NCBI GenBank assembly: GCA_023105745.1
Contig: JALGQZ010000009.1
Span: forward strand, 46,405,967 to 46,469,966
Length of the DNA: 64,000 bases
Direction of reading: 5' to 3'
Source: Austropuccinia psidii
Taxonomy: Eukaryota > Basidiomycota > Pucciniomycetes > Pucciniales > Sphaerophragmiaceae
Part shown: one piece after another, positions 7,210 through 42,304 of the stretch
How the letters are laid out: each line of letters starts with the position of its first letter
Position numbering within the stretch: the stretch's first letter is position 1
Position numbers and translations under genes: made by a program
The notes under the pieces: model-generated
Databases searched by the model: none
What the model was told of the DNA's origin: nothing
What the model saw: only the letters and a program-made list of their open reading frames with translations

Positions 7210-7255
7210 CACCAGGGCGAATCTCGTGTCAATCGTCGGCGATTGACTTCACGTC
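7210..7255 (+). repeat. Terminal inverted repeat, transposase end, copy 1
   Basis: It starts CACCAGGGCGAATCTCG and ends GACTTCACGTC, with an internal near-palindrome (CAATCGTCGGCGATTG, 7230-7245). It matches the inverted sequence at 28248-28293 with few differences. The CAC start resembles the CAC(TA) termini of CACTA transposons. Confidence 0.9.
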
Positions 7256-7330
7256 AAGCAAACGTCAAGCAGGATAAAAGTCGAGCTCACGTCAAGCAAA
7301 AATCAAGCGAACGTTGAGCACACGTCCTAC
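7256..7330 (+). repeat. Subterminal ACGTCAAGC repeats
   Basis: Several variants of ACGTCAAGC(A) lie directly inside the terminal repeat of copy 1 and are conserved in copy 2 (about 63330-63396). Clustered subterminal motifs are the usual transposase-binding sites of CACTA elements; binding here is inferred. Confidence 0.65.
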
Positions 7331-7507
7331 TCTTGTCTTACACCAAATCCTGTGACATCCACCAATATTGGTTCCGCTGTGCCTTCAACTCAGATTCCTC
7401 ACCACCTGATCATCCCGCAACCGTCCAATGGTTGGTAAAAATTACCCAAGACCCGCCTGTTTGCAAACACACACATCAAAGAGGTCCTTCAGCCAGTCTT
7501 GATGTAG

Positions 7508-8175
7508 GCGGGGGGTTTGACTTCACCAGGTCATCCATAAAAGGACTCCGCCTGAGCGGGATTGTCGTTTTGCAGGTGACACTGGTAGGGCCCGCCGCAC
7601 AATACCGCGTGTGCGTGTGCGGGTGCGGGTGCGCTTGCGTGTGCAATGGTGTGTGCGGGTGCGGTTGCGTGTGCATTGGCGCGTGCGGGTGCGGGTGCGC
7701 AAGGGTCGCTTCCCCTTCCTACATGATGATGGCGCCGTTAGCAATTTTGGCGGGGGGTTTGACTTCACCAGGTCGTCCATGAAAGGACTCCGCCTGAGCG
7801 GGATTGTCGTTTTGCAGGTGACACTGGTAGAGCCCGCCGCACAATACCGCGTGTGCGGGTGCGGGTGCGCTTGCGCTTGCGTGTGCATTGGCGCGTGCGC
7901 AAGGGTCGCTTCCCCTTCCTACATGATGATGGCGCTGTTAGCAATTTTGGCGGGGGGTTTGACTTCACCAGGTCGTCCATGAAAGGACTCCGCCTGAGCG
8001 GGATTGTCGTTTTGCAGGTGACACTGGTAGAGCCCGCCGCACAATACTGCGTGTGTGGGTGCGGTTGCGCTTGCGTGTGCATTGGCGTGTGCGGGTGCGC
8101 TTGCGTGTGCATTGGCGTGTGCATTGGCGTGTGTGCAAGGGCCGCTTCCCCTTCCAACATGATGATGGCGCAGTT
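7508..8175 (+). repeat. About 200-240-bp tandem units with GT-rich minisatellite
   Basis: Three units each start near GGCGGGGGGTTTGACTTCACC (7508, 7749, 7949). They contain GGACTCCGCCTGAGCGGGATT and then a variable GTGCGGGTGCG/CTTGCGTGTGC tract. Copy 2 has only one unit (about 62930-63145), so the array has changed length since the copies parted. Long open frames here (up to about 150 aa, Arg/Cys/His/Thr-rich) are by-products of the repeat. Confidence 0.8.
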
Positions 8176-8394
8176 AGAAATTTTGGATGCTGTGAAAGGT
8201 GAGTGTGTGGGTCATTTGATCATTGAACTTGGCTTATTCACACTGTACCCAATGTCAAAATAGTAAGTTCTTTGTGGCAATGTGAAATAATGGGCTTTGC
8301 TTGTCACAATGGCATGTCTCTGTCAATAAATTTTGAGGCAGTTATTTCACTAGCAAAATTGCTAATGAATCTGAGATATTTGCATTTCTGTAGA

Positions 8395-11300
8395 CTAAAT
8401 TTCATGAAATAACGGCTTTATCATTACAAGCAGTCCACATGACAGAACTTTGTTATCATACAATCCACAGTTACCTTCTATTTCTTCTTCAGATATAATC
8501 AAGTGTCCATCATCAAAACCAACAGCTTTATAAATATTCAGATGCGGCCAATCTGGTAAGAAATTCACATCAATCTTCAAAGTTTTTAAGATCAGAAAGT
8601 TATTCTTCAGTATGCTAGATGGCTCAGAGACTTTAAAAATGCTATTAATAATACCAAAGCGTCGTGAGTTGCCCCTCAGAAAACATATCACACTGTTGCT
8701 GACATTTTTGGATTCAGTTGAAAATATATTGTTCCCAATATTAATGTTTGAAACTGGAAAATACCAAGGTGAGACAATCCTTGAAGTGAGATGACTTGTG
8801 GATTGCACGGTAGTGTCTAAGCTGATCCAATCAACTATTTCCCTTGTTGCATGAAAATTCTGTAAGTACTCAACCAGGCAATCATAATTTTCTTGGTCAT
8901 GGCGGGATGGTTTGTTATATTTATGGTCATTGAACAGGGTAGGTGGCTGTGATTCGAAAAGCTGTTTTATTTCACATGGCACGGATGGGGATTTCAGGAG
9001 AACGGAAAGGTTGGAACATCGACAGATATGTTGAAGTAAGGTTTTATCTATATCATCTATTTAGAGTTGTAAGAAGTTAATCTTATTCAGTTCAGGTGTT
9101 TAATCAATGTGAATATATTGATCTTATTAATTGACGTACATATTTTGTTATTTGTTGGCATTTTTGCAAATACTCCAATCAAGCGCTCATAACCCCATGT
9201 GGCTGAGGCTTGTGCTGGGCCCCAACGTTGGAAGAGTTCGGGAATATGGTCAGCAAAATGATGATTTGGTTTACTTTTCTGTTTTGGGAACAGGAGTTGA
9301 TTGGAAAGGCGGAATTTTTTCCAATGTTCAGCAAATGCAGTCGCATCTCCTATTGAAACAGTCCAACTTGTGGCAATGTTGATAGCACTAATCAAATGGA
9401 ATGTATTCTTGGTTAGTTCATTTCCAAGTTCTTCTGACTGACCCATTTGCCTTTGAATGTTGGCGGATTGGTGTACATCTAATGACATCTGTTGACTGAG
9501 CATGAAAAATGGAATATAGACCTTATATAAGAGAGCCCATTCAGCGGCTTTTAAGCTACCATGAGAGGGGGAACCCATGTTGCGAGGTACTCTTGTCCAT
9601 GATGAGGGAATTATTGTCTCAGATATGATTTGTCGGAGATGCTCCAGAGCCTCACCCTTGATCTGGTGATCACTCAGTGCAGTGATATCCAATTCAGAGG
9701 GGATTTCAGAAGTGGGGATGTAATCGGCATCAAATGAAGGAATCTCCGCAGAACCACTAGATGGATGTTCTGTGTTAGGGGTGGGCATTGGGAAGTAGTT
9801 TTTTCGGGTGGAAGTAGTGGGGAGTGGCTCATTTATTATTTTTGCTGCGTCTCTTCTCAGGGAGCGGGCCTCTCTCAATGTGATTTTATCAAGAGAGCTG
9901 TTGGAGGTCATGGAATCTGAGTCTGAACTGTTGGTGTCATTGGATTTCCTGCGGGACCTGAGGTAAATTTTTGATTTGGACTCTGGAATGCACAATTTGA
10001 AAGTTGCATGATCCTTCAAAATTCCAAGTATTAAATTATGCATTATGTCAAGATTAACCATTCTGGTGGCATCCCAATACGGAAGGTCTTCTAAAATTGA
10101 ATATCGCACTCCATACTCAGAGAAAATTGCTTGTCTTTGTTGCGGGGTTGCCCGAAGCCATTTGGCAATGGTTGATTTATGATTTTGATATGAGCGTGTG
10201 TAGTGAAATTGAGGACCAATTTCATCAATTTGAGCTTTGTGAATGGTGCAAAAATTACAAAAGTGGTTGCCTGAATGGGAAATAAATCCAGTAAGCTTGT
10301 GCATGGCAACCACATCCGCAATGGCTGTGAGGATGGCAACACGGATAAAGGATCCTGATGGACCTGTTGAGGTGGGTGAAAAATGGTAACCTTGCCATAG
10401 CTCTTTGAGCTCCTTGATGAGTGGCATTAATAAATAATTCAATTGAAGGGAAGTTGGCTCCTTCGGACCAGGGATTATTCCTGCAACATAGATATTCTCT
10501 GGCTTCAATCTTTCACTTGGGGGGAGATTAAGACAAATAAGCATGATAGGTCCAATGCTGGCCAACCGGGTGGACTTTCCATGTGCATTAAACCAGTCCA
10601 CATAAATGGAGAAGGCCAATGCACCAGGAATGGACATGAATGGGGGGTCATGGATATTTCTAGTGCCAGTGAAGCGTCTCCAGACCAATCCATCCCATAC
10701 GTCACATTTTGGGGAATCTTCGGGAGTTTGGGATTGTTGATGTTGATGCAGAATTTCCATAATTCCAGCCCGCTGGAGAAATCTGGCAAGCCAATTTTTG
10801 AATGGTTGATAAATGAAATGTTTTGTTGGTATAAATTTTTGCTTCATGTTGGTGGTGTTTTGGGTGTGGGCTTCAAATGAATAGATGAATTTGCCTAATG
10901 ATTGTGTGCAAGGGGGATCATGATCATTTGGGTCATTATGGCGTTGACAGTGGGGTTGGTCAGTTGTGACTGATTCAGTAAGGCCATTAAGAGAGAAACA
11001 TTGAGGACAACATATATAGTTTTGAATCACTGGCTCCAATTGGAGATGTTCAAATATGGTACTCAGATCTTGAGGTATATGGAATGCAGGAATGGGGGGA
11101 CCACTGGAGCTGGAGATGCTGGACTTGATCAGCAGGTTTAGGGAGGGGTGGAGAATGCGTGAAGCCCTGCGGGGTATATTATACCTTAATGATAGAATGG
11201 CAGATATTATCATTCCAAGGTCTTGTGGAGGAAGGGTTTGACTGCTGCTGTATGGTTTCTGTGCAATTGAATTGAGCCCCGGTGCTGTGGAGAAGATGCT

Positions 11301-11558
11301 TTGGGCCCATGGTGGTGAATAATCAGCTGGGAATGTTTGATCCAATAGAAGTTGTGGGCACTCAGATCCTGATGCAGAAGTAGGGATGTTTGGAAGAGAT
11401 TTGGGTGCAATGGTTGATTTGAGCTTTTTAATGTGCTGTTTATATTGGAAAGGTGTGAAGGCAACTCCAGGCCTATCACCCTCAGGGGAAGAGTGTGTTT
11501 GAGTTGAGCAGTGTTGACACATGCATATACGCATTGAGGAATAGCGGCGGGTTGTCAT
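8395..11558 (-). CDS. Plavaka-like DDE transposase (two exons, 1026 aa), intact
   Basis: This is the predicted transposase that would cut and paste the element. Exon 1 is 11558-9140 and exon 2 is 9056-8395; the 83-bp intron has donor GTACGT and acceptor ATAG, and the joined frame is open. An N-terminal Cys/His segment (residues 12-41, CMCQHCSTQTH) precedes a second cysteine cluster (CCPQC at about 183-187, then PHC and PPC). Then comes the family core: IPGALAFSIYVDWFNAHGKST (Asp321), LICLNLPPSER, ENIYVAGIIPGPKEP (355-368), NHFCNFCTIH and VNLDIMHNLILG (Asp504). Asp321 and Asp504 are candidate catalytic residues. The GIIPGPKEP block is characteristic of fungal Plavaka transposases rather than KDZ. 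The Met at 11558 is conserved in copy 2. It is divergent from the WRS gene and shares a 1-kb promoter region with a CpG palindrome. Confidence 0.88.
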
Positions 11559-12519
11559 TGTTGCAGGAATTGGGAGTACGGTTGGTTTGTGTATAAATAT
11601 CTTTGGCTGATGTGAAAGTGTTTAGGAGTGTTACTAATTGGCAAAAAAATTGAGTGATTCTTTATGAAGGGGGAGATGATTTGAGCCAGCTGGGAGTTTT
11701 ATCCCATTTGTAATGGTGTGTGAGCTGCAGCTGATGGAGTGTAACATGTCTCATCTGGATGGCGGAATTGGTTAGGAATTTAATTGGGTAAAATGCCATG
11801 CTGCTCAATGCTCATACATATACTATTTTATTTACACATGGCGATACTGCGGTTTTGACCCTTGAGGGGTGTTCCAATAGGGATGTGTCAACATTGATTT
11901 GAGGGGATTGACATTCAAACCATGTACGCTGGCACGCCATCGTACATGGCTTAAACCTTATTACAGACATAACGATATAACTCTATTACATAAAAGGTTG
12001 GAGTGTACCTAAAGTCTTGGTATTTGGTTTGAGTGCAGCAGGCTTTTAATCGGTTGGAGTGTGATTTGGATTGTTTTGCCTTTCTTGTAAAGGTGATGTC
12101 TCTTTTGTGGGTCAATCCTTCATGAATATACCCCTTTACAGATGTACAATGCTGTGGAATTTCAATGCATATATTGGCAGTTTGGATAATTCACAAAATG
12201 TGACAATGGGGAGGCAGAAATGTTACCAAATATGTTTACTTATGGATGATGGGTCCCCTTTGAGATCAAGGAAATATTACATTATATGGTGGTAGGCCGT
12301 GCCGGGTGGTTTCTGATAAAAGCGGAGGAGCTCAAGAGGAGGCAGGGAGGATTCTCCTAAAAAGAGGCTTATTGGACTTTCACGCAACACTTAGTTCCAA
12401 CTATTCATAGAATTTCTCTATTCTAAATTTGAAAAGATTTCATCTCATATCACTCTATTTTATCATAATACTGAGGTGTTTTATCTAGTTAAAAATATTA
12501 CTGTACTTTTTCGGCCCTT
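11559..12519. promoter_or_regulatory. Divergent promoter between transposase and WRS gene
   Basis: No gene is visible. A TATA-like TATTTATAC (minus strand, near 11590) lies about 35 bp upstream of the transposase ATG. The CpG palindrome sits at 11921-11948. The region is well conserved in copy 2 (58590-59550). Confidence 0.55.
11921..11948. promoter_or_regulatory. CpG palindrome, site a (copy 1)
   Basis: A 28-bp near-perfect palindrome with arms CATGTACG and CGTACATG around TGGC-ac-GCCA. It belongs to the six-site family in this element. The copy 2 equivalent is 59161-59188, where one CG has become CA. Confidence 0.75.
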
Positions 12520-14581
12520 ATGTCATCTTTCAAGTCACATAAATCCCGTTCAGGTTCTGTTCATGACTCAAATAGTGAATCTAGCATAGAATATGTTCAA
12601 ACACAGTCACCATTGAGCCCCAACATTCCTCTCACAACCCCTATCGCATCCTCAATGAATGTATCAGGTCTTAACATTGATGTGGGCAATCCAAAGGCTC
12701 CAACTTCAAGCACTTGGTCGATCCCAAATATTTCCGTCACTCCAATTCCCCCGAATCCCACTAATACACAAATGCATGTGTCTGAGGGGCCGGAAGGCAC
12801 ACCTCAAATGTCATCACACGCTAATCCCCAATCAAAATATCCACGTGAGTCCCTCCTTAATCCCGGTCGGAATCCAGTCGCATCCCAGGATCCCTTTGGC
12901 CAAAGTAAACAGCCAACCCTCAATATTCCATCAGGATCTCAGGTTCATGTGGTTCATGAAAGGCACATGGATGGGGGACGACGAAAAAGACCATTGGAGA
13001 ATGTAACTTGGAGTGGTCTTTCGGAGGGAAATCCAGGATTGACGCTTCATCAAAGTAAGTCATTTTAATTTCGGTGTATAACCTTTTTCACAATTTGATA
13101 TGTTTGTTTCATGGGTTAGATATGGCACCTAAAGGCAAGTCAGTCCGATCTCAGGAGCCAATTGAAGATTGTGAGTATGACCAGTCTTCATTCATTTTTT
13201 GATGTGTTAACTGATGATGTGCATGGCAGGTGATGAACTTTATGCATCTTCACCTCTGGTCCATAAAGAGAAAGTCACTGGACATCATCATCCATATTCC
13301 TCCAAACCAAGAACAGCTCATGCCAGTTCATCAAGCGAAAAAATGGTGGATGATGAGGATGAGAACATGTCTCCGACTCAAATGGAAACAAATGATGAAG
13401 CAAGGAGTGACAATTTCATGGCGCATGATCATGGCACTCAGTCAAATAATGAGTTCAACCATCCTCAAATGCCCCTTGCCCAGAGTATGCTTGAACAATC
13501 CGAGGTCAGACAGCAAAGGAACCAGGCTCGTAAAGCTCACAATGTGGCGAAACGTGCAAGCCAGAAGGAGCAACAAAAATGGCTGAAAGCAGAACTTCCA
13601 GAGAATGTCCATGGAATGAGATCAGCAGTACATGCACATTGCCTGTTCCTACTCAAAGTTAGGGATAAGGATTTTTCCTCACTACCAGCACCACCAAGCA
13701 CAGAAGAGCGTGAGATTGCAATTCAAGTGGCTGGTCATCTTGGATATGTCCCCGAGGATGTTTTCAATGAGCCATCAACACAGGTTCAGTCTCAGGGTTT
13801 CCAAAGCTACTGCAAAAATGAGCTCCACAAGCTAGGACTAAAGCGATTCACTTGGGACTGGGAGAGCTCATGGCAACATCCGTTCAATGAGCTGATGTCT
13901 ATGGTGTTTTACTGTACATTCCGTCTTGCACTGGTCAGCACCAAGTATCATCATTACTGTTGGAACAAGGATCATAATAACTATGGGGTCGTAGCGGCTT
14001 TAATGGAGCGATATTTCACTTATTTGAAAAGAGAATGGAAGTCTATTCAAAAGGATGCCGAGTATTTGGTTAAAAAGAAGGAGAATCAAAAGCTTGCGAA
14101 GATTCGTCAAAGGGTTAGTTAATGTCTCTCTTCTTCATTGTGAGCAAAGACTGATGATGATCTACTTCATTATGTGCAGACCTGTGAGCGCCGTCGTGAA
14201 TGGTGTGATACGGCTAAATCTCCCATTCTAGCATCACAATTCAATGACCCTCGAGTATGTTCAGATACTGAGGAGGTACTGGAAAATGGCCGTCAAGTTT
14301 ACCGCAAAGTGGGATTACGCTGGCGCTCCCAGTTATTTAATGAATTGGTATTAAAAATGGATCGAGACATAGAGTTTTGTAATCGCATTAAAAAAAAGGG
14401 TAAGAAAACTATTGATAGATTGCCAGAATTACGCTCGACAGATGATGGTGATATTCCGGAAGGCTTATCATTTCAGGTATTTGATCAAGATTGGCTCAAA
14501 GGCTGTAGTAAGATGCAGACTAGCGCCCTCAAAATACTTGACATGCCAGTTATTAGGCCGAATGGTGATGCTCTGCAATAA
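12520..14581 (+). CDS. WRS-family gene of unknown function, four exons (623 aa)
   Basis: I do not recognise a biochemical function. Exons 12520-13054, 13120-13170, 13230-14113 and 14180-14581 join in one open frame. The N-terminal 180 residues are Ser/Pro-rich and probably disordered. A short MAPKGKSVRSQEP segment follows, then a basic region (QQRNQARKAHNVAKRASQKEQQKW) that could bind nucleic acid or be a nuclear signal. The conserved part covers FTWDWESSWQHPFNELM, YHHYCWNKDHNNYG and a C-terminal block with SDTEE, YRKVGLRWRSQLFNELV and MDRDI. The SD-E...Y...WRS...D arrangement resembles an uncharacterised, widespread basidiomycete family I have seen near transposons; that link is from memory. 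It is transcribed away from the transposase. Copy 2 has a broken equivalent. Confidence 0.75.
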
Positions 14582-14916
14582 CTTAGTAATATAAATGTAT
14601 AGCACCGTTACAAATTAACATTTTGTGAATTATTTGTGCAGGTGTAATACAATCTGAGTATTAATCCTTAAAGATGCAACTTGCTAAATATGTCAGAATA
14701 TAGACAATATGAGTTGGACTGTATCACCGTCTCCCTTAGAAATAATACTCTATTGCTCATTTTCATTGAGGAAATATTGAAGGAGTTCGATCCAACTCAT
14801 GGTGTTCATAATTGTGGACCTATGCCAGGGTAAACAAGAGTTATCAACTTGGTCAAACACAAATTATATAATATCAGTAAGGCTCACGCAGTTAATGATT
14901 TTTTCTTTTCTTGGAC
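14582..14916. other. Convergent 3' region between WRS gene and SNF2 gene
   Basis: No gene or clear motif is seen; it probably holds the two 3' untranslated regions. It is conserved in copy 2 (56205-56543). Confidence 0.4.
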
Positions 14917-17316
14917 CTATTGGTGTTTGGAAAATGGCATTTCCATAAGGAAGGATTTTAGAATAGCAATACAATTAGGGTCAAAGATGATCTTGAAAGG
15001 TACCTTCCGCATGTTGACCTCAACTGAATGAGGAGTTATATAGTGGATGACCTTTACAGGTTGTTGTTGGCCAATACGATGGAGTCGATCAACAGCCTGA
15101 GCCTCAATGGCTGGGTTCCAATTGGGCTCCTGAAATGTGGATGTCAGGGGCCACAAATCAGGGCAGAATTTTGGGGGTCCCCTCACCATTAAATAGACCG
15201 TATTAGCACAAGTTATATTGAGGCCAGTTCCAGCTGCGGCAATGGATGCAATCAGTACTTCACATTCAGGATTATTGAAGAAAGTATCCAGTGCCTTCTC
15301 CTGTGCTCGTGCTGTAATTGTTCCATCAATTCGTGCTGAAAGGATAGAGTGATGGGCAAGGGCAATACCAATTCTACAATATAAAAAAGTCAGATGGATT
15401 CAATTGGTAATGGATGCATATTAGAATTAACGCACAAATCTAGAAATTGGGTCCATTGGGAGTAAACCACCAATTTGGTTGGACCACACCTTGTTTGTTT
15501 GTTCTTCATTAAGCTTTGTAGGAGGTGGGCAATTTTACTACTCATCATGCATGTTTCGACATCCACAATAGTTCGTGTGATTGTTGGCGATTTATCCTGA
15601 GTGCTCCTGCCCTCGGGGTCTTCCAAATCCGCCTCCGCAATTGTGTTAAGCATGATGTGATGGTTACAACATATTCGCAGCTTATTAATATTTCTGAAAA
15701 ATTCTCCTGGGGCTTTGCTTTTGGATGATAGGAATTCTTCATATAATATGGAATATTCTTGCTGCATGGTTGGGTTGAGTGGGAGCAGCTCATAATGATG
15801 GCTAATAGTGGGGAGGGATTCGAGATGTGTGGTTTTGGTGCGGCGCAAACTTAAATGCCGCAATGCCAAATGCAAGATATCATTGCAACCTTTGGAAAGA
15901 CTACTCAGGATGAATGGTGACCAGTTATCTTGATTGGCGCTCTGGGGTTGAGTGATGAATGATATTATGCCCAAAAGGTCATAAATGGTGTTGTGAATAG
16001 GTGTGCCCGTTAAACATATTCGACGGGATGAAAGGAGGCTATTAATGGCACGGTGAGTGGCAGTGTATTGAGAGCGAATATAGCTATAAGATGGGGCAAG
16101 GTTTATTGGATATAAAAGGTAATTTGAATCATTTAAGCTCAGCCACTCACTGTGCTTCATCCAAAATTATACGATGCCAATTGATTTGAAAAATGAATGA
16201 TGTAGAGGGATTGGTTTGCTTAAATTCTTGGGTGATAGTATTGTAAGAAGTGATGATGATATCATATTTTAAGATGTCGTCTTTGGATAATGAGTGACGA
16301 GTGGGACCATGGTAGATTTTGGAATGCAGCGCTCCAGCCTGAGCATGCTTGGATATTTCTGATTGCCAGTTGGTAATTAAGCGAGGGGGGCAGATGATCA
16401 TGGTGGGCGTGGAGCGATGGGGGTTTGCAATCATCCGCTCCTTGGAGGTACCAATTAGAGCAATGGCCTGAATGGTTTTACCTAATCCCATATCATCCGC
16501 GAGCAGTCCCCCAAGAGGGGTATTGGTCGAAAGGGATTCAAATGAGCTAACAACCCTGTTTGTAATGATGTGCCTGGCATTGAAAGTGGATCCTGGGGGT
16601 GAGGTGGCCCAAAGGTTACGGGCTGATTGGCCATTGGGGATTTCTCGATCCCAGAGAAAAGCTAGTCCAGTCTTTTGATGAGGGAGGAGGGGGGTTTGAA
16701 TAATGGCATGGGGCGGGGTCATCATGGGGAGGTCTGATCCACTGGGTAATTGTATCAGTTTTTGCTTGGAAATCAATGATGAAACAGCAGGATATGAAGC
16801 AGGCGTCGAGTTTGAAGCGGGAAATGTCGGAGTAAAGAGTTGAAATTGACAATGAGTAGTACAGTCATATTCTTTGGGCATTTTAAGCTTGAAATCTTGC
16901 GTTCGAAAGCTTTCCATTATGAATAGAATGTTTGGATACCATGTGAAGAACATCAATGCTAGATTGGGTTTCTGAGATGAGGAGGGATCATTGGCATCAG
17001 TCATAAATACTCCCTCAACAAATAATATTTGAGTAGGATTGGTTTGGCAATTTTCAATCCATGCCCCACCAGGACCACAGTGCATGAAAGTTTTTGGTGC
17101 CCCAAGGAATGGTATCAACGTTTGGGAAAGGGTTCCCGGGAGAGAGCCAATAGCATGCTGGTGATTGGGGAGATATACAAATATGTTGTGTTGATTGTGC
17201 CATAGGATAATCGAAGAACCTAAGTGGGAATTCTCAGGCTTTAAGGTTATATCACTATTTATTTGAATACAAATATTAATCATCCCAATGCAAAGTGGTT
17301 GTGAAGGGGTTGACAT
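14917..17316 (-). CDS. SNF2-family ATPase, HLTF/Rad5-like class, four exons (737 aa)
   Basis: This is a double-stranded DNA translocase of the Swi2/Snf2 type, likely to remodel chromatin or displace proteins in the nucleus. Exons 17316-16151, 16083-15436, 15373-15187 and 15129-14917 give one open frame. Motifs in order are GGLLADDMGLGKT (about 270-282, ATP binding), MIICPPRLITNW, DIIITSYNT, RIILDEAH (387-390; the His codon is completed by splicing), LTGTPIHNTIYDL, SLRRTK, VVYSQWTQFLD, IAAAGTGLNI (about 652) and QAVDRLHRIGQ (about 680). The core is most like HLTF/Rad5/Rad16. No RING finger is inserted between the two lobes, unlike most of that class. The N-terminal 200 residues are unassigned, and a HIRAN-like trace around HAIGSLPGTLSQTL is uncertain. 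The ATG at 17316 was chosen because copy 2 shares it; an in-frame ATG 15 bp upstream exists only in copy 1. Confidence 0.88.
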
Positions 17317-17842: not shown

Positions 17843-19047
17843 GACTTTGGTTTTGCCTGAAGTTTTTTGCTGACTGATGCATACTGGGCTTTCAGGGGGG
17901 AATGTGTGGGATGATCAAAGGGGGCGCCAGCCGTGAGCCGTGATCCACATATACATTCACCCCTATGGCGTTTGAGGCGAGTACTAATCTACCGAGATTG
18001 GCATCCGGGTCTTTGCCTCACGCGCGTACAGTTCCGGAGGAAAGAGGCCACACGCCCCAGGGATTTTTTGGCTGCAAGCCAGGTGCCACAACTTGGGCGG
18101 GGCGTGTGAGAACGTGAAGAAAATGACCCGCGGTGGGAGATACCCACGCAAACATGTTTTAGCAAACATAGGCTGGGATTGTTATTCTAATGTGGATGAG
18201 GCTGAAGCAAATCCACACTGATTGGCCTCAGGTTTCCACGCGCAAGCGGGTGAGCGTCTGCAGTCACGCTGACAACCCGACCAAGAAAATAGGCAGCTGG
18301 CAGACTGGCAGTCAAATGTCTTCCAGGCGTGTGAAAGTTGCCTGCGTATGACCCATCGGGGGTGCGTATGAAAGTGTGTGGCTGCCCGCCAATGAACAAG
18401 CAGGGCCAGTCATTGTTGGCCCCGACAATGGCACCGGAGTGAATCCACTGTTTGTGTATGACCCAAATAATAAGTCATCCCATTATGACCTACATTCATT
18501 AACTTGGATTACACCCACATCTGTGCTGTAGTTAGGCAGAGCTCTCTAACAAGGTGCATCAAAGGGATGCAGTTGAGATATATGACTCAATGGCTTGACG
18601 TGATTGCATGTTACATTGCTGAACAGCTTTTGCTCTTCCCCGCAGCATACATTTACACAGGTGTACTGCGTACTACAGTGTTGGCTGTACAGATCAGGAA
18701 GGTGTTATACTACTTGAGCCTGCATGCGTATAGCCAATGGGTATTCACCTTCCAATTGTTTGCATATACGTAGCTCATGTGCCACATGCTCAGCATTGCG
18801 TTTCACCCAATTTGCACACGCAAGCTGAGCATCTCATGGTCAAAAGCACCGTGTGAAAGTGCTCAGTAAAGCCATGGAATGAACTATTTTTGCAATAGTT
18901 CATTGGAAGGCTCAGTTTGGAGCACTTCACCAAAGCGTGTGAAATGCTGCAGCTGGCTGAAATGTCACCCAATGCTGTGCCAAATGCTCAGATTGTGGGC
19001 ATAAAATAACGACTGAGCAATGGCTCAGCATGGTGCATTTGACATTT

Positions 19048-19785
19048 TTATATCAATAGTTCAATCACTGTGCCATTAAAATGTTCAGCCACTGAGCATT
19101 TCAATTATGACCCAAAAGCAAACCTGAGCAATGGGTCGAGGCAAGCTCATGCTGTATTCACTTGTGTTACAGCCCCCCCTTTGTTCACATACTATTACCA
19201 AGCCATACGGCTGGTAATATTGCCGTGGTCACTTGTGACCAAATGCACCGGGTGCATTTCTGCATGGGTCACTTGTGCATTCCACCCACAATGCACATTC
19301 AACAAGGGCCTCACGACCACCCTCCCGGGTGATCGGGTGGCTATTTAAGGAAAGAAAGGGGATTTGACTCAGCTTGACAATTTAATAAATTGCAATACTC
19401 AGCGGTGCATTTGATATTGTTATATCAATTGTTCAATTACTGTGCAATTAAAATGTTCAGCCACTGAGCATTTCAATTATGACCCGAAAGCAAACCTGAG
19501 CAATGGGTCGAGGCAAGCTCACGCTGTATTCACTTGTCTTACAGCCCCCCCTTTGTTCAAAGACTATCACCAGGCCATACGGCCGGTGATCTTGCCGCGG
19601 TCACTTGTGACCAAATGCACCGGGTGCATTTCTGCATGAGTCACTTGTGCTTTGCACGTTGAATGCACATTCAACAAGGGCCTCACGACCACCCTCCTGG
19701 GTGATCGGGTGGCAATTTAAGGAAACAAAGGGGATTTGACTCAGCTTGACAATTCAATAAATTGCAATACTCAGCCAGACCCCCA
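19048..19785. repeat. Direct duplication of about 371 bp with CTGAGC motifs
   Basis: Two units repeat the same order: AAATGTTCAGCCACTGAGC (19079 and about 19450), GAGCAATGGGTCGAGGCAAGC, an ACAGCCCCCCC run, GTGACCAAATGCACCGGGTGC, GGCCTCACGACCACCCT and a TATTTAAGG/AATTTAAGG near the end. The same duplication exists in copy 2 (about 51420-52060), so it predates the split of the copies. It lies upstream of the Cys6 gene. Confidence 0.75.
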
Positions 19786-19925
19786 TTGTTCTTCTGCCTC
19801 ACGCGAGCATTTCACTTCTCAGTTGCAGCATTCGCTGAGACTCAGCTTCAATTTTGCCCACACGCCTTGAAGCTGAGACTTTTGCGGGTGCTGAAACTGC
19901 TGAGATCGTCTCAGCTTCACCATGC

Positions 19926-19933
19926 TATAAAAG
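19926..19933 (+). promoter_or_regulatory. TATA box of the Cys6-cluster gene
   Basis: TATAAAAG, followed by a pyrimidine-rich stretch, about 430 bp upstream of the ATG. It is conserved in copy 2 (about 51207-51217). A TACTAAC branch site and TTTTTAG acceptor immediately before the ATG (20330-20353) point to an intron in the 5' leader. Confidence 0.6.
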
Positions 19934-20353
19934 ACCATCTTCACACGACACGCACTTCACTTTCTTTCTCACCCGCTCCACTTCGTTCAACCTCACCCGC
20001 GTTTGTCCTTGTGCGTATTCCCCCTCGTCTTCCTGCCTTTCCAGTCTTTTCTTTCGCACTCGACTAACCCACTCCCCTTCCTGCTCGCTTTTTGTTTATT
20101 CTTCTGATCCGCTCAGAAGCTCCCTTCTATCCACCTCGTGCGTTACCTCTTTTTTTAACTTTTGTCAACATTATGTACCGATATTAATATTTTTCTTCCT
20201 TCACGACTTCCTTCCAGACTTTTAAAAACTCCCGACTCGAGCGTTTTTAATTTGATTCCGTTTTAAATTTATATAATTCATCGTATGCCTTCATTTTCTT
20301 TCTTGATTGTTTACTTTGTATGCAGTTACTAACCTCGCTTGTTTTCTTTTTAG

Positions 20354-21749
20354 ATGTCGTGCACTTTATGCACCAAGCGGGGTATCCCCTGCATTCATTC
20401 CTCGACGACGAACGACACTTGTGATGCTTGCCGACAAGCACACAAGAAATGTTCGTTTGTTGTCCGCCCCTTCCGACCACGAGGCCAGAGGAGTTCTCGC
20501 CCAAGACGCCCTCGCGAGGACTCCTTTGTGGTCGACGATGATGAAACCATTTCCGAGCGTGAATGGACGCCGGGCCCCCAAACAGGCCAACGGGAACGAT
20601 TCCGGACGATTAGCCCTGTCCCCTCCAGTATCGATTTGTCCACTCCCCCTCCTAGGCCACCATCCGATGGTCACTTCACTCCTCGACCGGAGCGAAGTGA
20701 TTATCCGGCCGATGAAGGATGGCGATGGCGAGAGGACATTCAAGCTTGGGCTGATCGTCACCATGTCTTGTCATTGATGGGATTCAAACGCCAAAGTAAG
20801 TTTTCTTTCTCCTCCTTATCTCATTTCTCTTCACGCAATAATATTGACTTTTTTCCATTTCTCATAGAACAAAACCACCCGAATCCCCCCCGACAAGACT
20901 CTCCCGTTGCTAGTTTGCCTCGCGAGCAAACCCCCCGGCAACCAACTCCAGGCCCGAGTGGCACCCGATGGTCTGAGGAATTATTCCGCGGTAAGCAGCC
21001 AAAGTTTCATTTCATTTTCACTTTCACTTTCGAGTCGAGTGAACTGACTCTCACTACTTTTTTAGAACCCTCCCGAACCGAAGAGCCACCTATTCCTGGC
21101 CCAAGTCCATCGTCCCAACCACCTGAGGACGATACAACTCGTGAGCCAGAACCTGAGGTGGCTCCTACGCAATCCACGGAGGAACCTAATGGTAAGTCAC
21201 CACTTCTCTTTCTTCACTCCTCTCAACTTTTCCTCACCTTTTCTTTGACCGTCTCCAGATCGTCCCGCCACTCCTTGCTCGATCATCATCATCGACGATA
21301 CGCCCGTGGGATCCCCAATTCCCAATCCCCTTCCCCCTCCCCCTTCTTCTTACCCGACTCGCCCACCTTCCCCTTCCATTCCCCCCCCCTCCACTCCAAC
21401 CCCGGTTCCCTCCCCAGATATCCCTTCCAGTGCCCCCGAGAACCCCAACGCCTCCTCCCCCCCGGTGCCAAGCTCGTCTCATTCCCACAATGACGCTCGC
21501 CAGGAATTCACCGACCTGCGACCGACCCTAATGATTCCTCGAGCTATCGTCCACGATTCAATCAACCGAATCTTGTTGGAGCATCGTCGCTTGCTCCACA
21601 TGATTCCTTTCGTGGATGAAACTCATCGAAATGAGATGCACCGGGAATTGCGGGACGAACTAAGCCCTCCTTGCCCAGGCACTGGAGGCTTATCCAAAGG
21701 AGGACATAACCGGGATAGTCTCCAAATTCCTCGAAAAATAAAAAATTAA
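20354..21749 (+). CDS. Permuted Cys6 (zinc-cluster-like) DNA-binding protein, four exons (393 aa)
   Basis: This is a predicted nuclear DNA-binding protein. Exons 20354-20795, 20868-20990, 21066-21191 and 21259-21749 join in frame. Residues 3-33 are CX2CX6CX9CX2CX6C (Cys3, 6, 13, 23, 26, 33), the spacing of a fungal Zn2Cys6 cluster. The halves look swapped: CTLCTKRGIPC resembles the usual second half, and CDACRQAHKKC the usual first half. An Arg-rich segment and long Pro/Ser-rich disordered stretches follow. The C-terminal block is TLMIPRAIVHDSINRILLEHRRLL. Relative to copy 2, copy 1 lacks 2 nt near 21664, which replaces the last roughly 28 residues; the copy 2 frame (LLAQALEAYPKED) looks ancestral. 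The 5' leader probably contains an intron. It is a candidate reader of the CpG palindromes (inference). Confidence 0.72.
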
Positions 21750-21837
21750 AAAAAAAATAATCCCATTATTTCAACTTTTATCATTTGTAATACTTTCTTT
21801 TAAATAAATTATCATTTGTAATCAATTATTGTTATGT

Positions 21838-22029
21838 TCAAATTCTATTACATTCTTTGTTCACGTAAAAATTACTTATTTCCTCCTTAGAGAAAAACCC
21901 TGATTGCATGAGAATTATTTTTGTAAGTGCCCCACCAAGAGTTTGAGTGAGTATTTGTTTTCGTGAACCTCTTTTTCTCAAAATGCGCCAATAGTTGCCG
22001 TTATCCTCTCCTATATTTTCTTCTTCCAT
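21838..22029 (-). CDS. Small conserved ORF or exon, unknown
   Basis: A 63-aa frame starting MEEENIGEDNGNYWRILRK. The first roughly 30 residues are nearly identical in copy 2 (49175-49302), after which the frames diverge. It could be a short gene, an unannotated exon or chance conservation of sequence in a duplicated element. No domain is recognised. Confidence 0.25.
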   Translation of the reverse strand: MEEENIGEDNGNYWRILRKRGSRKQILTQTLGGALTKIILMQSGFFSKEEISNFYVNKECNRI

Positions 22030-22183
22030 GGTTTAGAGCCATCCCCATTCTTAACTGTAAAAAAGCGGCAGGTTCCCGTATGTGAGCAATCCAGTCCAGA
22101 TTCGTGAAACATGGCCTTTCCTATGGTCACACGCTATTAATCTTACTCATGTATCGAATTGTTTAAATTGTCTCGAACCTTAA

Positions 22184-22738
22184 AAAGCGTAAGGATTGGC
22201 GTGTGACTTGTCGGGACACTGCACAGGCGTAAGGATTGGCGTGTGAATTGTTGGGAGCCTGCACAGGCATAAGGATTGGCGTGTGAGTTGTTGGGAGCCT
22301 GCACAGGCGTAAGAATTTGTCAGCATTGTTGGCAACCCTCCCATGCGTAAGGATTGGCGTGTGAATCGTCGGAAGCCTGTACAGGCGTAAGGAATTTTAG
22401 CACTTTTGGGACCCCTCACAAGCATAAGGATTGGCGTGTGAATTGTTGGGAGCCTGCACAGGCGTAAGAATTGGCGTGTGAATTCTTGGGATCCTGCACA
22501 GGCCAAGAAATTTTCAGCATTGTGGGGAAGCTTCACAAGCGTAAGAATTGGCGTGTGAATCGTCGAAAGCCTGTGAAGGCGTAAGGATTGGCATGTAAAT
22601 TTTCGGGAGCCTGCACAGGCCCAAGGATTGGCGTGTGTAGCGTTGGCACCCCGCATAGGTGTAAGGAACTTTTAGCATTGTCAGAACCTGCACAAGCATG
22701 AGGATTCGCGTGTGAAGCATTGGCATCCTGGACAATAG
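22184..22738. repeat. Minisatellite 1, about 40-45-bp units
   Basis: About a dozen imperfect units built around GCGTAAGGATTGGCGTGTGA and TTGGGAGCCTGCACAGG. Copy 2 has the same array (48553-49031) with a different arrangement of units. Open frames across it (His/Ala/Cys-rich) are repeat by-products. Confidence 0.85.
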
Positions 22739-22754
22739 CAACAAACCAGGACAG

Positions 22755-22780
22755 ATGTACGATGGCATGCCACCGTACAT
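22755..22780. promoter_or_regulatory. CpG palindrome, site d (copy 1)
   Basis: A 26-bp near-perfect palindrome, half site ATGTACGATGGCA, at the edge of minisatellite 1 and downstream of the TET gene. It is the only site of the six not upstream of a gene. The copy 2 equivalent is 48501-48526. Confidence 0.75.
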
Positions 22781-22904
22781 AATCCACTTCAAACCTTTTT
22801 CATGTCAGACACCCCATCTCCCGCACTAGAATCCATCCAATCCTTGTGTATATTGTCCTCTGCCTTACCCCACCATTACTTACCCAACACACATGCAAAT
22901 CTCC

Positions 22905-24233
22905 TCAATCTTTGAATCGGCATGAGATTGTATTACCATCCCTGATTTGATAGCCCGCTCTCTCGCCAATCTCATAATAGCCATGGCTTTTTTGCCGCAT
23001 TGTTTTTGCTAACCTGCTTGAGCATTGTGCGGACATACCCACTAGTGTCGTGCTTTCGTTGTCCTGTGCTGGATCAGTATAATGAACAAATGTACTACTG
23101 GCCCACACTACCTGAATGAGCCCATGACATGCGGATAGATCAATCCAAAAATGCTCATTTGGGAAAATCAATTTTCCCCCTGTACACCGCTTTGACGTAT
23201 CTCTTTGAATTTGGCCGGTCTGCTTATCAGCTTGAAACCACCATCCCGAAGCATACAGCGATGCATCCTTATCAACATGAGGTGCGTTTTTGAATCCATT
23301 CATGGTGAAAGTGAGTGTGGAAGCGAACTCGAATGCACCCTGATTTGCCAGAATATTGCCTTCATAGTTGACTTGATCAAAAGACGGAACCCCCAATGAA
23401 TTGTAGGAATTTTGAATCTTCTCAAATAAATTATCCCCAACATATTGTAAGGATTGACCTAGAATGCAACCCACCGAGCTAAGATTGGCACCTCGGTTCC
23501 GCCATTCATCTTTTGCATTTTCAATTTTGCCAGCACTTCCATACAGACCAAATTGTTCATTCTTCGTGGTGCATTTGCGCCACCCAATCGCGAACATAAA
23601 TCCCTCCAGTAATGCTCCATTTGTTGCAATAGGGTCAGTGAACCTCTTTTCGCGAAATAAGAATTGTGATGATTCATCCCATTGATTGACCTCGACTTCA
23701 CTCATTGTTGTGAATGGTCGGAATTCGACAAGGGCAATGAGTAATCCGGTTGAAGAGAAAATTGCCACACGGCCAAAGTGAATGCGTTTGATCTGATTGA
23801 CATCCACAACCCTCCGAATTTCACTTGGGGTCATATTTGCTGATACTGGCATTGATATTTGTGCTGTTGGGCGAGAGGAGGAAAACAACCTATTCATTCG
23901 GCTTGTTTTGCGCTCATTTGTCTTTTGGGATCTGCTACTATTCCCGAGTGGTTGAGGGATCACTATGTGTTGAAGCACACAAGATATCAGATACTGCCAA
24001 GGAGCTTTCTTTGGCACACATCCTTGAACTTCCCTGTTGGAGCCCACATGACATTGGCACAATCTGAACCGACTAAAGCCAATGTTCTTCCATGGGGCCC
24101 AATGAGGGTGCCACATAAATGTGGAAGCATATATACACTGAGATTAAGCGAGTAACTCACACTTTCCTTCCTCAGCCCGACGCTTTCTCGCGAGTTCCCT
24201 TTTACGCTCTTTTCCTTTTTTGGTGAATGGCAT
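22905..24233 (-). CDS. TET/JBP-like 2-oxoglutarate Fe(II) dioxygenase (about 356 aa)
   Basis: This protein is predicted to oxidise a nucleic-acid base (5-methylcytosine in TET relatives) using Fe(II) and 2-oxoglutarate. It matches the Tet-like 2OG-Fe(II) oxygenase family expanded in rusts and other basidiomycetes. Landmarks in the last exon are IKRIHFGRVAIFSSTG, LVEFRPFTTMS, GFMFAIGWRKC, FKNAPHVDKDASLY (HxD iron ligands), GGKLIFPNEHFWIDLS, VWASSTFVHYT (third iron-ligand His) and LVGMSAQCSSRLAK (candidate 2OG-binding Arg). My gene model is exon 1 24233-24161 (basic MPFTKKGKERKREL start), exon 2 24033-23995 and exon 3 23863-22905; it is open in both copies. The short exon 2 is the least certain part. 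An unspliced frame from 24116 is the alternative. The copy 2 protein has the same length and all catalytic residues. Confidence 0.82.
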
Positions 24234-24567
24234 GCTTTCAGCAGAAATTGAAATGAAACCAAATGATTACTGATTTCTTAATATCACCTAAATTGGATTG
24301 CCGTGGATGAATCTTTTTTAATTGCGGCTAAAAAGAAAGCTCACGCCTGACCTTGGCAAATTCACGATCTCAAATACCTGAACCTGAAAATTGCAGTGGA
24401 TAGTGCATTCTTCAATTTTACACATTGATGTTTCCATGCAATCACTTTCCAATCCAACCATTTGGAATATTGCAAGCACACGGAAATGCAATATGCATCC
24501 TGCTGCGGATCCCTAGCTATCCTAGTCCTCTTGAAAGACACAGGAACATTTGGCCTATTATGGGCTG

Positions 24568-24622
24568 GCGGGAAGTGATAAACGCGACTTCCCGCAATGC
24601 ACCCGCGTGTGCTACTCGCGGG
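24568..24622. promoter_or_regulatory. Paired CpG-rich hairpins upstream of the TET-like gene
   Basis: Two adjacent inverted repeats: GCGGGAAGT (24568-24576) with ACTTCCCGC (24587-24595), and CCCGCG (24602-24607) with CGCGGG (24617-24622). Both are conserved in copy 2 (46696-46750). They sit about 340-390 bp upstream of the TET start. Their function is unknown; a binding site or a cruciform is possible. Confidence 0.55.
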
Positions 24623-24668
24623 CACATCGCCTGACTCAGCTTGCGTCTTGTCGGAGTCTTTGCAATGA

Positions 24669-24692
24669 TGTACGGAGGCATGCCGCCGTACA
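24669..24692. promoter_or_regulatory. CpG palindrome, site e (copy 1)
   Basis: Half site TGTACGGAGGCA with its near complement, 24 bp, in the promoter region of the TET-like gene. The copy 2 equivalent is 46626-46649. Confidence 0.75.
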
Positions 24693-24810
24693 ATTACTAT
24701 TGGTACTCAGACTGTGGCATCCGGGCAGTAGTAGGATAGGAAGTCATGATTATTAAATTCATAAATAACTTTGCAAAATTCAATTACAATCTATCTAGTA
24801 CAAAGCTAAT

Positions 24811-27040
24811 CTAAAACGGGTCAATCCTGGTTGTGAGTTTAGCTGACCTGGGTACCGTCAAGGTGACCTCATCACTTGAACCAAGCCCGCGTTTTGCCAC
24901 CCAGGCATCACCAAAGTCTAATACTAAGCATCGTGCAAATTCAAATCTAAGAGGTACAGCGGGGTTAAAAGACTCTGATGCGAAGAAACTTTTATTCAGT
25001 AAATCACATATATACTTATTAGTACGTAGCCACACTGGCTCCACTAGATTTTTACTTTCTGAAAGTTTTGCGGAAATGTCAATTAGTGATAAAGCCCCTT
25101 TAACTGAGCTTGTTCTCCAGTCATCTGAGCATACCATCAAACCACGAACCCCCACCGCACAGAATGCCGCTAATATACCATAGCAAATTCGATTTATTCC
25201 GAGATTCTTGTGACACGTCAAAAGATCTTTGATGGCCTCATTTTTTTTTGAGTTTGTGAGTTTGCCTTTGATGCCATTAACTTCGACCTTTGTATGTGCA
25301 CGTACCATGTTGTACGCAATCATCAAATGGATAACTGTATCCATTAGATCCTCCAGGTTCTTGTGCGGCTTTGTGGATATCTCATTGTCAGCACCGCCAC
25401 CTTCAATGCTGAGTTGGGTTGCACGTTGCTTCGATTTACTCAAGCAGGAGGCAAGGTATTCAACTGCTCCGCGTTCGAGTCCAAGAGGATCGGTCGAATT
25501 TGATGTTGGTGCAACATATGGTTTGGGTGCAATCACATCATATGAGACTAAACTAATGGATTCAAACATAACATTTGCCCAAAAATGTTTAACTGGATTC
25601 GCGGGGTAAAGAAGGCTCTGAACCATTTTGAAGAAGGAGTGTTCAGATTTTGGGAGATTATCTGGAGGTTTAGCTGATTCCTTCATCAATTTGAGATTCC
25701 AAATGTTGTGATCAAAAAACGCTTCTGTTTCTGTTGGCTTAAAAAAATCTAACCCTGTATATTGCAATTTATATCACCAGTCAAAAGCCAATAATCAAGT
25801 ATCATGCACAAAGATTAAAAAAAACTCACCTGCCATCTCAAGGTCCTCCAGCCAAGCCGACATTTTAAGCTCTCGGTTACTGATCAACTTAATACCAACG
25901 GGCAGGAATGTATGAGCATCCTTTGTTGGTAAATTGTCCCATCTATTTTTGTAAATCCTATTGATATTATCAAGCCCCCTTTTCCATGATTGTTGAGAAA
26001 TATTGGAATGATAATTCAAAATGCCTGCAAACTCTTCCATGCGGGATAAAAATATTCCTTGAAAATTTGCAGCGGATGACACTTTGGGCTCAGCGTCAGG
26101 AATTATATCAGTCATATCTCGTCCCATTGTATCATGTTTAATTGTTTCCCTTTCTTGAGAGGCTTGAATATTCTGAGGAGAGGCGGGAGGGGTTGCATCA
26201 TGCATTGTTTCATTGGGTATCGGGGGGCTTTCAGTATGTGGAGCTTCATCATGCATTGTTTCATTGAGTATTGGGGGGGGTTCAGTATGCGGAGGTTGAT
26301 TATCAATATGGTCCCCTTCAACATTGATAATTTCATGACCTTGATCGCGAGAATCGTTTGCAGCTTCAAAGGTACGGCGTTTTTTGTTTGTTTTTTTGGT
26401 CGCATGTATATTTGGTCTTTTTCCTAATCCTTTGCCTGGAAATCCAATTACGACTCGAGATCCTTCAGGTAGAGATTCTCCCACCTCCACACCTGCCCAT
26501 ATATTGTAAGCAGCTATTTTTATCAATTTTGTTTTGAATTATTAATGGACTTACGGTTCAAATCCATTTTGAGCAGGCTCATGGCTTCAGCAATCTTTTG
26601 ACGCACATAATCAGGAATTTTACTATCATTTTGAATTTTCTCGAGCCTTGGGATTGTTTGAGCAATGTTGGAGACAAATTGTTCCTTGGATATAATTTCC
26701 ACCTCCCCACTGAAAATTACATCATCTTCTGTCGGTGAACAAGGTTCAACAGTCTTTTCCTTCTCATAAGTTTTAAAATTTGGTTTCTGAGAGCTTGGAG
26801 GCTGCCCTGAAATAAAGGCTATGACACAATATCAGGTTTTGAGAGATTTGAAATATTCAAGATGGATGCATACTCACATTCCGGAAGAACTGGTGGATCT
26901 TGATTATCTTCATGTGACTGGCTCTCTACTTCAATGCCTAATTCACAACTACTGGCGATATCAGAGATTTCACTTCCACTCTCTGGGGCTGAAGTTGGTC
27001 ATTCATTGAATTGAGTTGAATTTCCCGGGGTTCGGGCCAT
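24811..27040 (-). pseudogene. Gene 5, unknown function, four exons (673 codons), one premature TGA
   Basis: I do not recognise this protein. Exons 27040-26878, 26806-26555, 26492-25830 and 25754-24811 have good GT...AG borders and join in one frame of 674 codons. Codon 14 is TGA where copy 2 has CGA, so this copy is nominally broken near its start. An acidic Ser-rich N-terminus is followed by a helical stretch (AQTIPRLEKIQNDSKI), a basic KKTNKKRRTF segment (possible nuclear signal) and a disordered region with a duplicated PIPNETMHD/PILNETMHD motif. A conserved C-terminal domain follows (WDNLPTKDAH, HSFFKMVQSLLYPANPVKHFW, LDFGDAWVAKRG). It lies upstream of the TET gene on the same strand. Confidence 0.65.
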
Positions 27041-27539
27041 AGCGGAGGTAGTTTAGTAAGCAAATAGATGGTGACGAGTTGATTGATAACTTGTTTGAAA
27101 ATTTTTGAATAAAAAGATCCAAATTCAAGAAAAAAGGTGCAAGTAAAATAATTGCATTTGCAAAATGCGATTTGTCGGGAAATTGAAGGAGGCGATGTTT
27201 TGCAAATTATTTCATATCATGCAAATGAAATCACTTCCCTGTGAGACATTGAATAAAGTTGACTAGTGAGAAACCTACTAAAGTCAACTTTTGAACTATT
27301 CAACGCTCATGAGGTAAGGACTAAGCAAAGTGTTCATTTGATTGATATGAAATAAAATGGTTTTGTCGGCGAAACAGGAGACACAATTCTTGTCTTAAAT
27401 AGTCCACTTATTAGGTTTTAATTTGTGAGTCTCATGATTTAAACCCTAACCACAACATGGTGAATATACTGACCAATATCCCCTTAGGTCCTGTTGGGAG
27501 AGAAGGCCACTCAGCATATTTTGGCAATTGCGTTCATTG

Positions 27540-27563
27540 TGTACGCCAACAAGCCACTGTACC
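27540..27563. promoter_or_regulatory. CpG palindrome, site f (copy 1), decayed
   Basis: TGTACGCCAACA facing AGCCACTGTACC. The equivalent in copy 2 (42305-42328) is better preserved. It lies 500 bp upstream of the gene 5 start. Confidence 0.55.
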
Positions 27564-27571
27564 CTATGGAT

Positions 27572-27966
27572 GTAGTACAGAAGCGTAAGGATAAGTGGTG
27601 TTGGGAGCATGTCGGGAGGGCACTACATGAGCGTAAGGATGGTAAGCAGTGTTGGGAGAATGTCGGGAGGGAGGGTAAGCGTTGTCGGAGGCATGTCGGG
27701 AGGGCACTACATGAGCGTAAGGATGGTAAGCAGTGTCGGGAGAATGTCGGGAGGGAGGGTGAGCGTTGTCGGAGGCATGTCAGGAGGGCACTACATGAGC
27801 GTAAGGATGGTAAGCAGTGTCGGGAGGGAGGGTAAGCGTTGTCGGGGGCATGTCGGGAGGGCACTACATGAGCGTAAGGATGGTAAGCGTTGTCGGAGGC
27901 ATGTCGGGAGGGTACTACACAAGCGTAAGGATGGTAGGGGCGGGGGTGTGAAAGCGTAAGGAGTGG
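27572..27966. repeat. Minisatellite 2
   Basis: Units alternate GCGTAAGGATGGTAAGC with GTCGGGAGGGCACTACATGA and GTCGGAGGCATGTCGGGAGG. Copy 2 has the inverse array at 41846-42297. The GCGTAAGGAT core is shared with minisatellite 1. Confidence 0.85.
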
Positions 27967-28247
27967 TGAGGACGGAGAGGGGCGGGCAGTGGCGGAGTCT
28001 CATCAGGATGGAGGGCGGTGCGGGTGCGTAAGCATGCTAAGCGTCGGGGAGGCAGAAGCCAATGAGGTGAAATTACAAAAACGTTGCGCATAGTGTTGAA
28101 ATGGGTTTGGGCTTTGAGTGACATTCTCATGTGACACATGTGACGATTGACGTTGTCTTGACGCTGACGTGACGTGACCCACTAAATCCAGTGACTATAA
28201 AGTGACACTAACGCGACTGAAGCAAGATTTTATACTGACCGCGGTGC

Positions 28248-28293
28248 GACGTGAAGTCAATCGCGGACGATTGACGCGAGATTCGCCCTGGTG
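28248..28293 (-). repeat. Terminal inverted repeat, far end, copy 1
   Basis: The reverse complement starts CACCAGGGCGAATCTCG and matches 7210-7255 over 46 bp with a few substitutions. Beyond it the two ends differ (CGCACCGC here against AAGCAAAC at the other end). Confidence 0.9.
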
Positions 28294-42297: not shown

Positions 42298-42304
42298 TCC
42301 ATAG

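Follow-up and report, generated by a model that had tools for sequence, protein, structure and literature searches.

The stretch of DNA considered here, 64,000 nucleotides of contig JALGQZ010000009.1 of the rust fungus Austropuccinia psidii (positions 46,405,967 to 46,469,966; hereafter the window), contains two copies, A and B, of a block of more than 20 kb in opposite orientations. In each copy a transposase stands beside a TET-like dioxygenase, an SNF2 ATPase, a cysteine-rich protein (the Cys6 gene), and two proteins with no assigned family (ORF2 and ORF6). The arrangement raises two questions: do these genes move together as one element and, if they do, what does the cargo do for it? That the block is one mobile unit with selected cargo we regard as practically certain. 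On the second question, our best explanation, to which we give a probability of about 0.6, is that it is a very high-copy EnSpm/CACTA-type DNA transposon, presumably autonomous, whose cargo would act as an anti-silencing kit.

The case for a mobile unit begins with the ends. Copies A and B both start with CACCAGGG, are bounded by 46-bp terminal inverted repeats (TIRs) and 3-bp target site duplications (TSDs; Table 1), and can be aligned nearly end to end, with BLAST pieces longer than 2 kb at 90-96% identity; the 3'-terminal 0.7 kb is lower, at only 80%. Both contain the full set of six genes, in identical order and on identical strands, which in copy A are transposase (-), ORF2 (+), SNF2 (-), Cys6 gene (+), TET-like gene (-), and ORF6 (-). 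The first-pass annotation had described two full copies with matching termini, 3-bp duplications, and the same six genes, a description that is exact to the base. To this pair we added six copies (E1-E6), the closest 5'-end matches after A, giving a sample of eight. Five of these have both ends inside 27 kb, with lengths of 20.1-21.2 kb and TSDs AAA, AAA, AAA, CAA, and AAA. In E4, the transposase lies ~10 kb farther from the 5' end than in A, so this copy holds extra sequence, and the stretch read stops before ORF6; with that gene beyond reach in E4, gene order and strands are the same in all eight copies. Where both ends were read (seven copies), 43-45 of the 46 TIR positions agree between them, and each TIR has 5-7 CpG. 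On contig C1, six further pairs of TIRs that face each other at spacings of 20.9-32.8 kb also have agreeing 3-bp TSDs (6/6), which brings the count to 13 of 13 insertions read (A, B, five of E1-E6, and the six C1 pairs). Two of the 13, located on C1 around 78.08 and 61.80 Mb, interrupt ORF2 of another copy and thereby provide natural empty sites: the joined 47-base flank of each is unbroken in all eight copies, with no mismatch at one of the sites in six copies, one in E3, and two in E6, and with 2-3 mismatches at the other. The window and E1-E6 yielded no empty site for the other 11 insertions.

The family is large. In the genome searched (1.015 Gb, 84 contigs), a 28-mer from the TIR has 3,653 matches with up to 2 mismatches, and 40-mers with up to 3 mismatches have 2,818 (transposase), 2,675 (TET), 2,578 (ORF6), 2,547 (SNF2), and 2,210 (Cys6) matches; reversed controls gave 0 for the TIR and for all five genes. 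Some 2,500 copies, were all of them full length, would make up ~5% of the genome, an upper bound by arithmetic. Linkage was counted from exact matches among those listed on contig C1 below ~74 Mb, where misses include near-exact sites. An exact SNF2 40-mer lies at the expected distance and strand for 33 of 52 exact TIRs; for 12 it lies within 40 kb but not at that distance or strand, and for the remaining 7 that range holds no exact SNF2 match. SNF2 is found 6-10 kb downstream on the same strand for 57 of 83 exact TET sites (random expectation 0.2, maximum 2) and within 40 kb on the upstream side for 3. Around 99 exact SNF2 sites, the transposase is downstream of 65 (random expectation 0.3) and TET upstream of 57, with both at 45 and neither at 22. 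SNF2 and TET travel at about 1:1. No adjacent facing TIR pair closer than 20.8 kb, as expected of derivatives like miniature inverted-repeat transposable elements, appeared among the 100 exact TIRs listed out of 3,653 matches, which is a weak test.

Thousands of TIR matches, silent reversed controls, and empty sites bear out the first-pass view of one cut-and-paste unit rather than a chance cluster. That annotation had also named what would speak against it, namely the same TIRs around unrelated genes, or six genes that never co-occur outside the pair; neither turned up in the sample, in which all eight copies carry the set (ORF6 out of reach in E4), and the linkage of SNF2 to exact TIRs and TET sites on C1 points the same way. 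The opposite idea, that the genes stand together by chance or that one locus was assembled twice, has nothing in its favor beyond the two window copies themselves, and it is refuted by their different TSDs and flanks, the thousands of copies, and the empty sites.

Table 1. Positions in the window of the two element copies and of the ends and genes of copy A
Feature	Position	Strand	Basis or remark
Element copy A, EnSpm/CACTA-type transposon, 21,084 bp	7210..28293	+	TIRs and AAA TSD; inverted copy in same window
Element copy B, 21,932 bp, with damage in each of its six genes	41510..63441	-	TIRs and ACA TSD; gene content
Left TSD of copy A, AAA	7207..7209	.	
5' TIR of copy A, 46 bp, 6 CpG, inner inverted repeat GTCAATCG..CGATTGAC	7210..7255	+	
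Transposase	8395..11558; exons 11558-9140, 9056-8395	-	Pfam Transposase_21; start codon uncertain
ORF2, 623 aa, 4 exons	12520..14581	+	No assigned family
SNF2 ATPase, 719 aa, 5 exons	14884..17316; exons 17316-16151, 16083-15436, 15373-15187, 15129-15004, 14916-14884	-	Pfam
Cys6 gene, 4 exons, cluster halves apparently swapped	20354..21749	+	Weak Zn_clus match
TET/JBP-like dioxygenase core (PF20515)	22905..24071	-	Pfam E 6e-45; N-terminal exons uncertain
ORF6	24811..26816; exons 26816-26555, 26492-25830, 25754-24811	-	No assigned family; further 5' exons uncertain
3' TIR of copy A, 44/46 identical to 5' TIR, 7 CpG	28248..28293	-	
Right TSD of copy A, AAA	28294..28296	.	

The cargo also appears to be maintained. 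Mean dN/dS over all pairs of sampled copies is 0.42 for the transposase, 0.31 for ORF2, 0.34 for SNF2, 0.37 for TET, 0.39 for ORF6, and 0.59 for Cys6, and the controls gave 0.93 (an intergenic pseudo-frame), 0.56 (antisense TET), and 1.56 (an antisense SNF2 exon). Because CpG bias can distort this ratio, neutral simulations were run with the observed CpG-biased spectrum. The neutral pN/pS expected was 0.78-0.89, and none of 200 simulations fell at or below the observed value for the transposase, ORF2, SNF2, TET, or ORF6; for Cys6, 3 of 200 did. These results indicate purifying selection on the first five genes in the sampled copies, a finding that is new here. The Cys6 gene is weakly kept.

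To what superfamily does the element belong? The first-pass annotation called the transposase Plavaka-like and pointed to KDZ transposons (Kyakuja, Dileera, Zisupton) as established partners of TET/JBP genes in basidiomycetes. A KDZ/Plavaka label is not supported; by termini, TSD, and transposase the element matches EnSpm/CACTA (CMCT clade) better than either. Its TIRs have the CAC..GTG ends of the clade, and the 3-bp TSD of all 13 insertions lies within the clade range of 2-5 bp. The transposase matches Pfam Transposase_21 (E 4e-15, 56 bits) and has D, D, E, CxxC, and LDxMH motifs in all eight copies, although in a single copy the Y next to the E is replaced by F; the D/D/E assignment was made by eye. 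The LDxMH motif has been described for animal and fungal members of the clade. Two features do recall Plavaka, in that PlavakaB can have 3-bp TSDs and the Pfam Plavaka profile barely passes its cut-off (E 4e-6, 26.8 bits versus 26.3), although over the profile end only (positions 237-321 of 325). But the ends CACCAGGG differ from the TGT..ACA or CATCA..TGATG of PlavakaA/B, and Transposase_21 scores far higher. KDZ elements share TET/JBP cargo in basidiomycetes, but their TSDs are 7-8 bp. We reject membership in either group on termini and TSD. EnSpm/CACTA elements also have subterminal repeats that are bound by a TnpA-like protein; here, the terminal 400 bp contain short motifs at 3-5 copies, some of them inside the TIR.

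Part of this picture is already in print. TET-bearing EnSpm transposons of rusts (Pucciniales) have been described with CAC..GTG ends and 3-bp TSDs, in an account that mentions related A. psidii EnSpm families and proposes escape from silencing (Kojima 2025, PMC12730594). Our element agrees with these in its termini, its TSD, its Plavaka-similar transposase classed as EnSpm, and the TET/JBP gene inside, and the TET-EnSpm core is therefore not new. Unlike that account, as far as we have drawn on it, the present one gives copy counts and selection tests for the family. SNF2 does not occur in the main text of Kojima 2025, whose Table S1 may list this family. A literature search for SNF2 as transposon cargo showed no paper on it, the one that combines SNF2, JBP, transposon, and basidiomycete concerning DNMT5 as far as it was consulted. 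What is new is a gene set that includes SNF2, the scale of that set, and the selection on it.

The host setting indicates what such a set might act on. Transposable elements of A. psidii are reported to be hypermethylated at CpG, most of all the young families, and Ty3 is the only transposon class larger than CACTA (PMC12774611). TET thus has a likely substrate. The aligned gene regions of our copies show 321 C>T/G>A changes, of which 203 hit the 492 CpG positions and 118 the 4,220 other positions, with TCG leading the contexts (96 changes). This strong C-to-T decay at CpG points to CpG-methylation-type pressure on the copies. The observed/expected ratio of CpG is 0.54-0.66 in the elements versus 0.02-0.16 in their flanks, and GC content is 0.43-0.45 versus 0.28-0.36. 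At the CpG-dense ends, 22% (window 7210-7330) and 18% (28100-28293) of bases lie in CpG.

We propose that the element works as follows. Its anatomy implies excision and insertion by an EnSpm-type transposase, which cuts the element out via the 46-bp TIRs and inserts it with a 3-bp target duplication. The TET-like enzyme would oxidize 5-methylcytosine at the CpG-dense ends and promoters. The RAD5-like SNF2 motor would open chromatin or strip proteins, giving TET and transposase access to DNA, and ORF2 and/or ORF6 may be the DNA-binding partner that gives specificity, like TnpA in maize Spm. Acting together, these genes would preserve expression and transposition of the copies in the face of host CpG methylation. 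In maize, Spm TnpA is a transposon-encoded, DNA-binding anti-silencing factor associated with demethylation. Arabidopsis VANDAL elements likewise encode their own anti-silencing factor, VANC (PMC10398659). Both of these are DNA-binding proteins, whereas the present element encodes two enzymes, a dioxygenase and an ATPase. Selected enzymes that move together in a CpG-methylating host, taken with the Spm and VANDAL parallels, make anti-silencing by TET and SNF2 the best fit. The first-pass annotation had supposed a self-contained system that demethylates, remodels, and binds its own promoters. Selection on the cargo backs a working set, and demethylation and remodeling are its probable tasks; promoter binding by the Cys6 protein found no support (see below).

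Several points weigh against this explanation. First, the dN/dS sample is eight copies (seven for ORF6), six of them chosen as best 5'-end matches; the antisense TET control makes the sense signal for TET modest, and a star tree underlies the simulations. Second, it is chiefly for roles in replication and repair, not anti-silencing, that RAD5-type motors are known. Third, the TET-like protein has no significant solved relative by sequence search, and fungal transposon TETs are, in the part of the literature used here, without experimentally shown function (Kojima 2025, PMC12730594). Fourth, CpG decay of the copies means that protection would be at best partial. Decay per cell is lower at the ends (0.024-0.025) than in the five well-kept genes (0.049-0.064), but the spacer between TET and ORF6 is equally low (0.024), and the ends are thus not special; with the 5' ends picked by similarity and the TIRs constrained, the low value there is weak evidence.

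Among the alternatives, one concerns the SNF2 motor. As the first-pass annotation had proposed, the element encodes an SNF2 ATPase: Pfam and Protein Data Bank (PDB) matches identify two helicase lobes with SNF2 motifs, and the best solved relative is RAD5 (E 1.3e-59, 206 bits versus 158 for the next). Five SNF2 motifs were checked in the eight copies; B, E3, and E5 have changes, and the Walker motif is retained in all. NCBIfam names for the protein were bacterial, far under cut-off, and were dropped. RAD5 proteins carry a RING finger between the lobes and a HIRAN domain. No Pfam match to either was found in the three SNF2 ORFs, so the protein is RAD5-like by its motor only. This kinship could mean that SNF2 is a helper in transposition or repair, acting in post-excision gap repair or in replicating a 21-kb element, and that only TET is anti-silencing. 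Selection on SNF2 like that on the transposase would suit such a helper, but its roughly 1:1 travel with TET fits a joint function, without proving it, and a Rad8-related SNF2 motor belongs to the DNMT5 methylation enzyme (PMC13297926, in the part consulted). We consider the helper role unlikely, at perhaps one chance in a few.

The same kinship allows a bolder version of the anti-silencing explanation, which is equally tentative. As in DNMT5 and the Rad8/RAD5 motors, so far as their literature was consulted, a RAD5-like SNF2 ATPase may here be tied to CpG methylation biology; unlike DNMT5, the element has no methyltransferase domain match in the Pfam search. TET and a RAD5/DNMT5-type SNF2 could then form a selfish demethylation machine in which the motor delivers TET to nucleosomal, methylated ends and ORF2 and ORF6 serve as targeting subunits. 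If true, this machine would mirror, in reverse, what DNMT5 does for the host as an ATP-driven methylation enzyme, and it might account in part for the rise of the family to roughly 2,500 copies. No chain named DNMT5 was among the best 60 of 82 and 60 of 68 PDB matches, in which RAD5 came first, the presence of DNMT5 in that library being unconfirmed.

A second alternative concerns the TET-like enzyme, whose presence in the element the first-pass annotation had recognized correctly. The HxD...H iron triad and the R are retained in all eight copies. Of 193 protein matches, the 120 listed are all from A. psidii MF-1, the two best covering 87% of the query at 90% identity and 79% at 95%; H, D, and H are covered by 107 of the 120, and 84 of these 107 keep all three. 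Around HxD the sampled copies are of two types, NAPHVDKD (A, B, E3, and E6) and NSPHLDKD (E1, E2, E4, and E5), which hint at subfamilies. Rather than restoring cytosine, the enzyme might write a protective or signaling base (5-hydroxymethylcytosine or other) or limit C-to-T mutation. Both options are raised by Kojima 2025 (PMC12730594), as far as that source was consulted, and the strong CpG hypermutation is consistent with them, but CpG decay continues in copies with open TET frames. We judge this somewhat less probable still than a helper role for SNF2.

A third alternative, that the cargo is passive, consisting of host genes captured once and multiplied by a successful transposase, draws on the decay of the copies. 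Frames open relative to A number 6/8 for SNF2, 5/8 for ORF2, 4/8 for the transposase, and 2/7 for ORF6; TET has a stop in 1/8 and a frame-breaking gap in E2, and in E4 the sequence read ends within the gene. In copy B, stops or frameshifts lie in the transposase, ORF2, SNF2, Cys6, and ORF6, and the stop in TET is also there. The first exon of Cys6 is broken in six of eight copies, open in A and E4. Nevertheless, purifying selection on ORF2, SNF2, TET, and ORF6 matches that on the transposase in strength, and on dN/dS and the neutral simulations we reject passive cargo as very improbable.

Cys6 is the least maintained of the six genes, as its broken first exon and frame differences from A indicate. 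Over its whole length, the seven other copies differ in frame from A, partly since A is without 2 bp near the end, and the end of the frame in A may be untypical. The first-pass annotation had seen a permuted Cys6 protein and had inferred binding of the element's own promoters. The second half of the cluster (residues 23-35) aligns to the start of the Pfam Zn_clus profile (3-15), so the halves look swapped; the match (E 0.053, 14.1 bits) is below the cut-off of 21, and the protein does not qualify as Zn(II)2Cys6 in the sense of a match above cut-off in standard order. The permutation thus stands as a hint, and the decayed first exon lends no support to promoter binding.

For ORF2 and ORF6, all protein matches (43/43 and 25/25, within the word-sharing and length limits of the search) are from A. 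psidii. A TET domain is annotated on four of the 25 ORF6 matches (P0083, P0091, P0129, and P0143, MF-1 assembly), which indicates ORF6-TET linkage in another assembly; their annotation as single proteins is perhaps a gene-model artefact of neighbors. An ARM-repeat match in ORF2 relatives (1 of 20 members) and CDC24 and UPF0147 matches in ORF6 were below cut-off or isolated and were dropped. Gene models came from a simple splice script and were then corrected by reading the sequence. Splice sites of the transposase and SNF2 are kept in all eight copies, and those of ORF2, Cys6, and ORF6 are kept save for GC in ORF2 of E3, AT in Cys6 of E2, and TT in ORF6 of E5.

Noncoding parts of the element contain arrays of imperfect repeats (window 22127-22681, 27577-27963, and 7409-8186), and A and B differ in length in stretches of this kind. 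A 2.2-kb direct repeat of 96.4% identity (window 2843-5040 and 35775-37975) flanks copy A, which, to go by this repeat alone, may sit inside a long terminal repeat (LTR) retrotransposon.

What would such an element mean for rust fungi? The observation that transposons carry TET genes becomes a testable multi-gene system of selected, co-moving enzymes, in a setting where CpG methylation marks young transposons. Thousands of natural copies that differ in gene integrity provide a ready comparative experiment. If a transposon does carry both the eraser and the motor that exposes DNA to it, it would oppose host silencing directly and might be among the causes of gigabase genomes in rusts.

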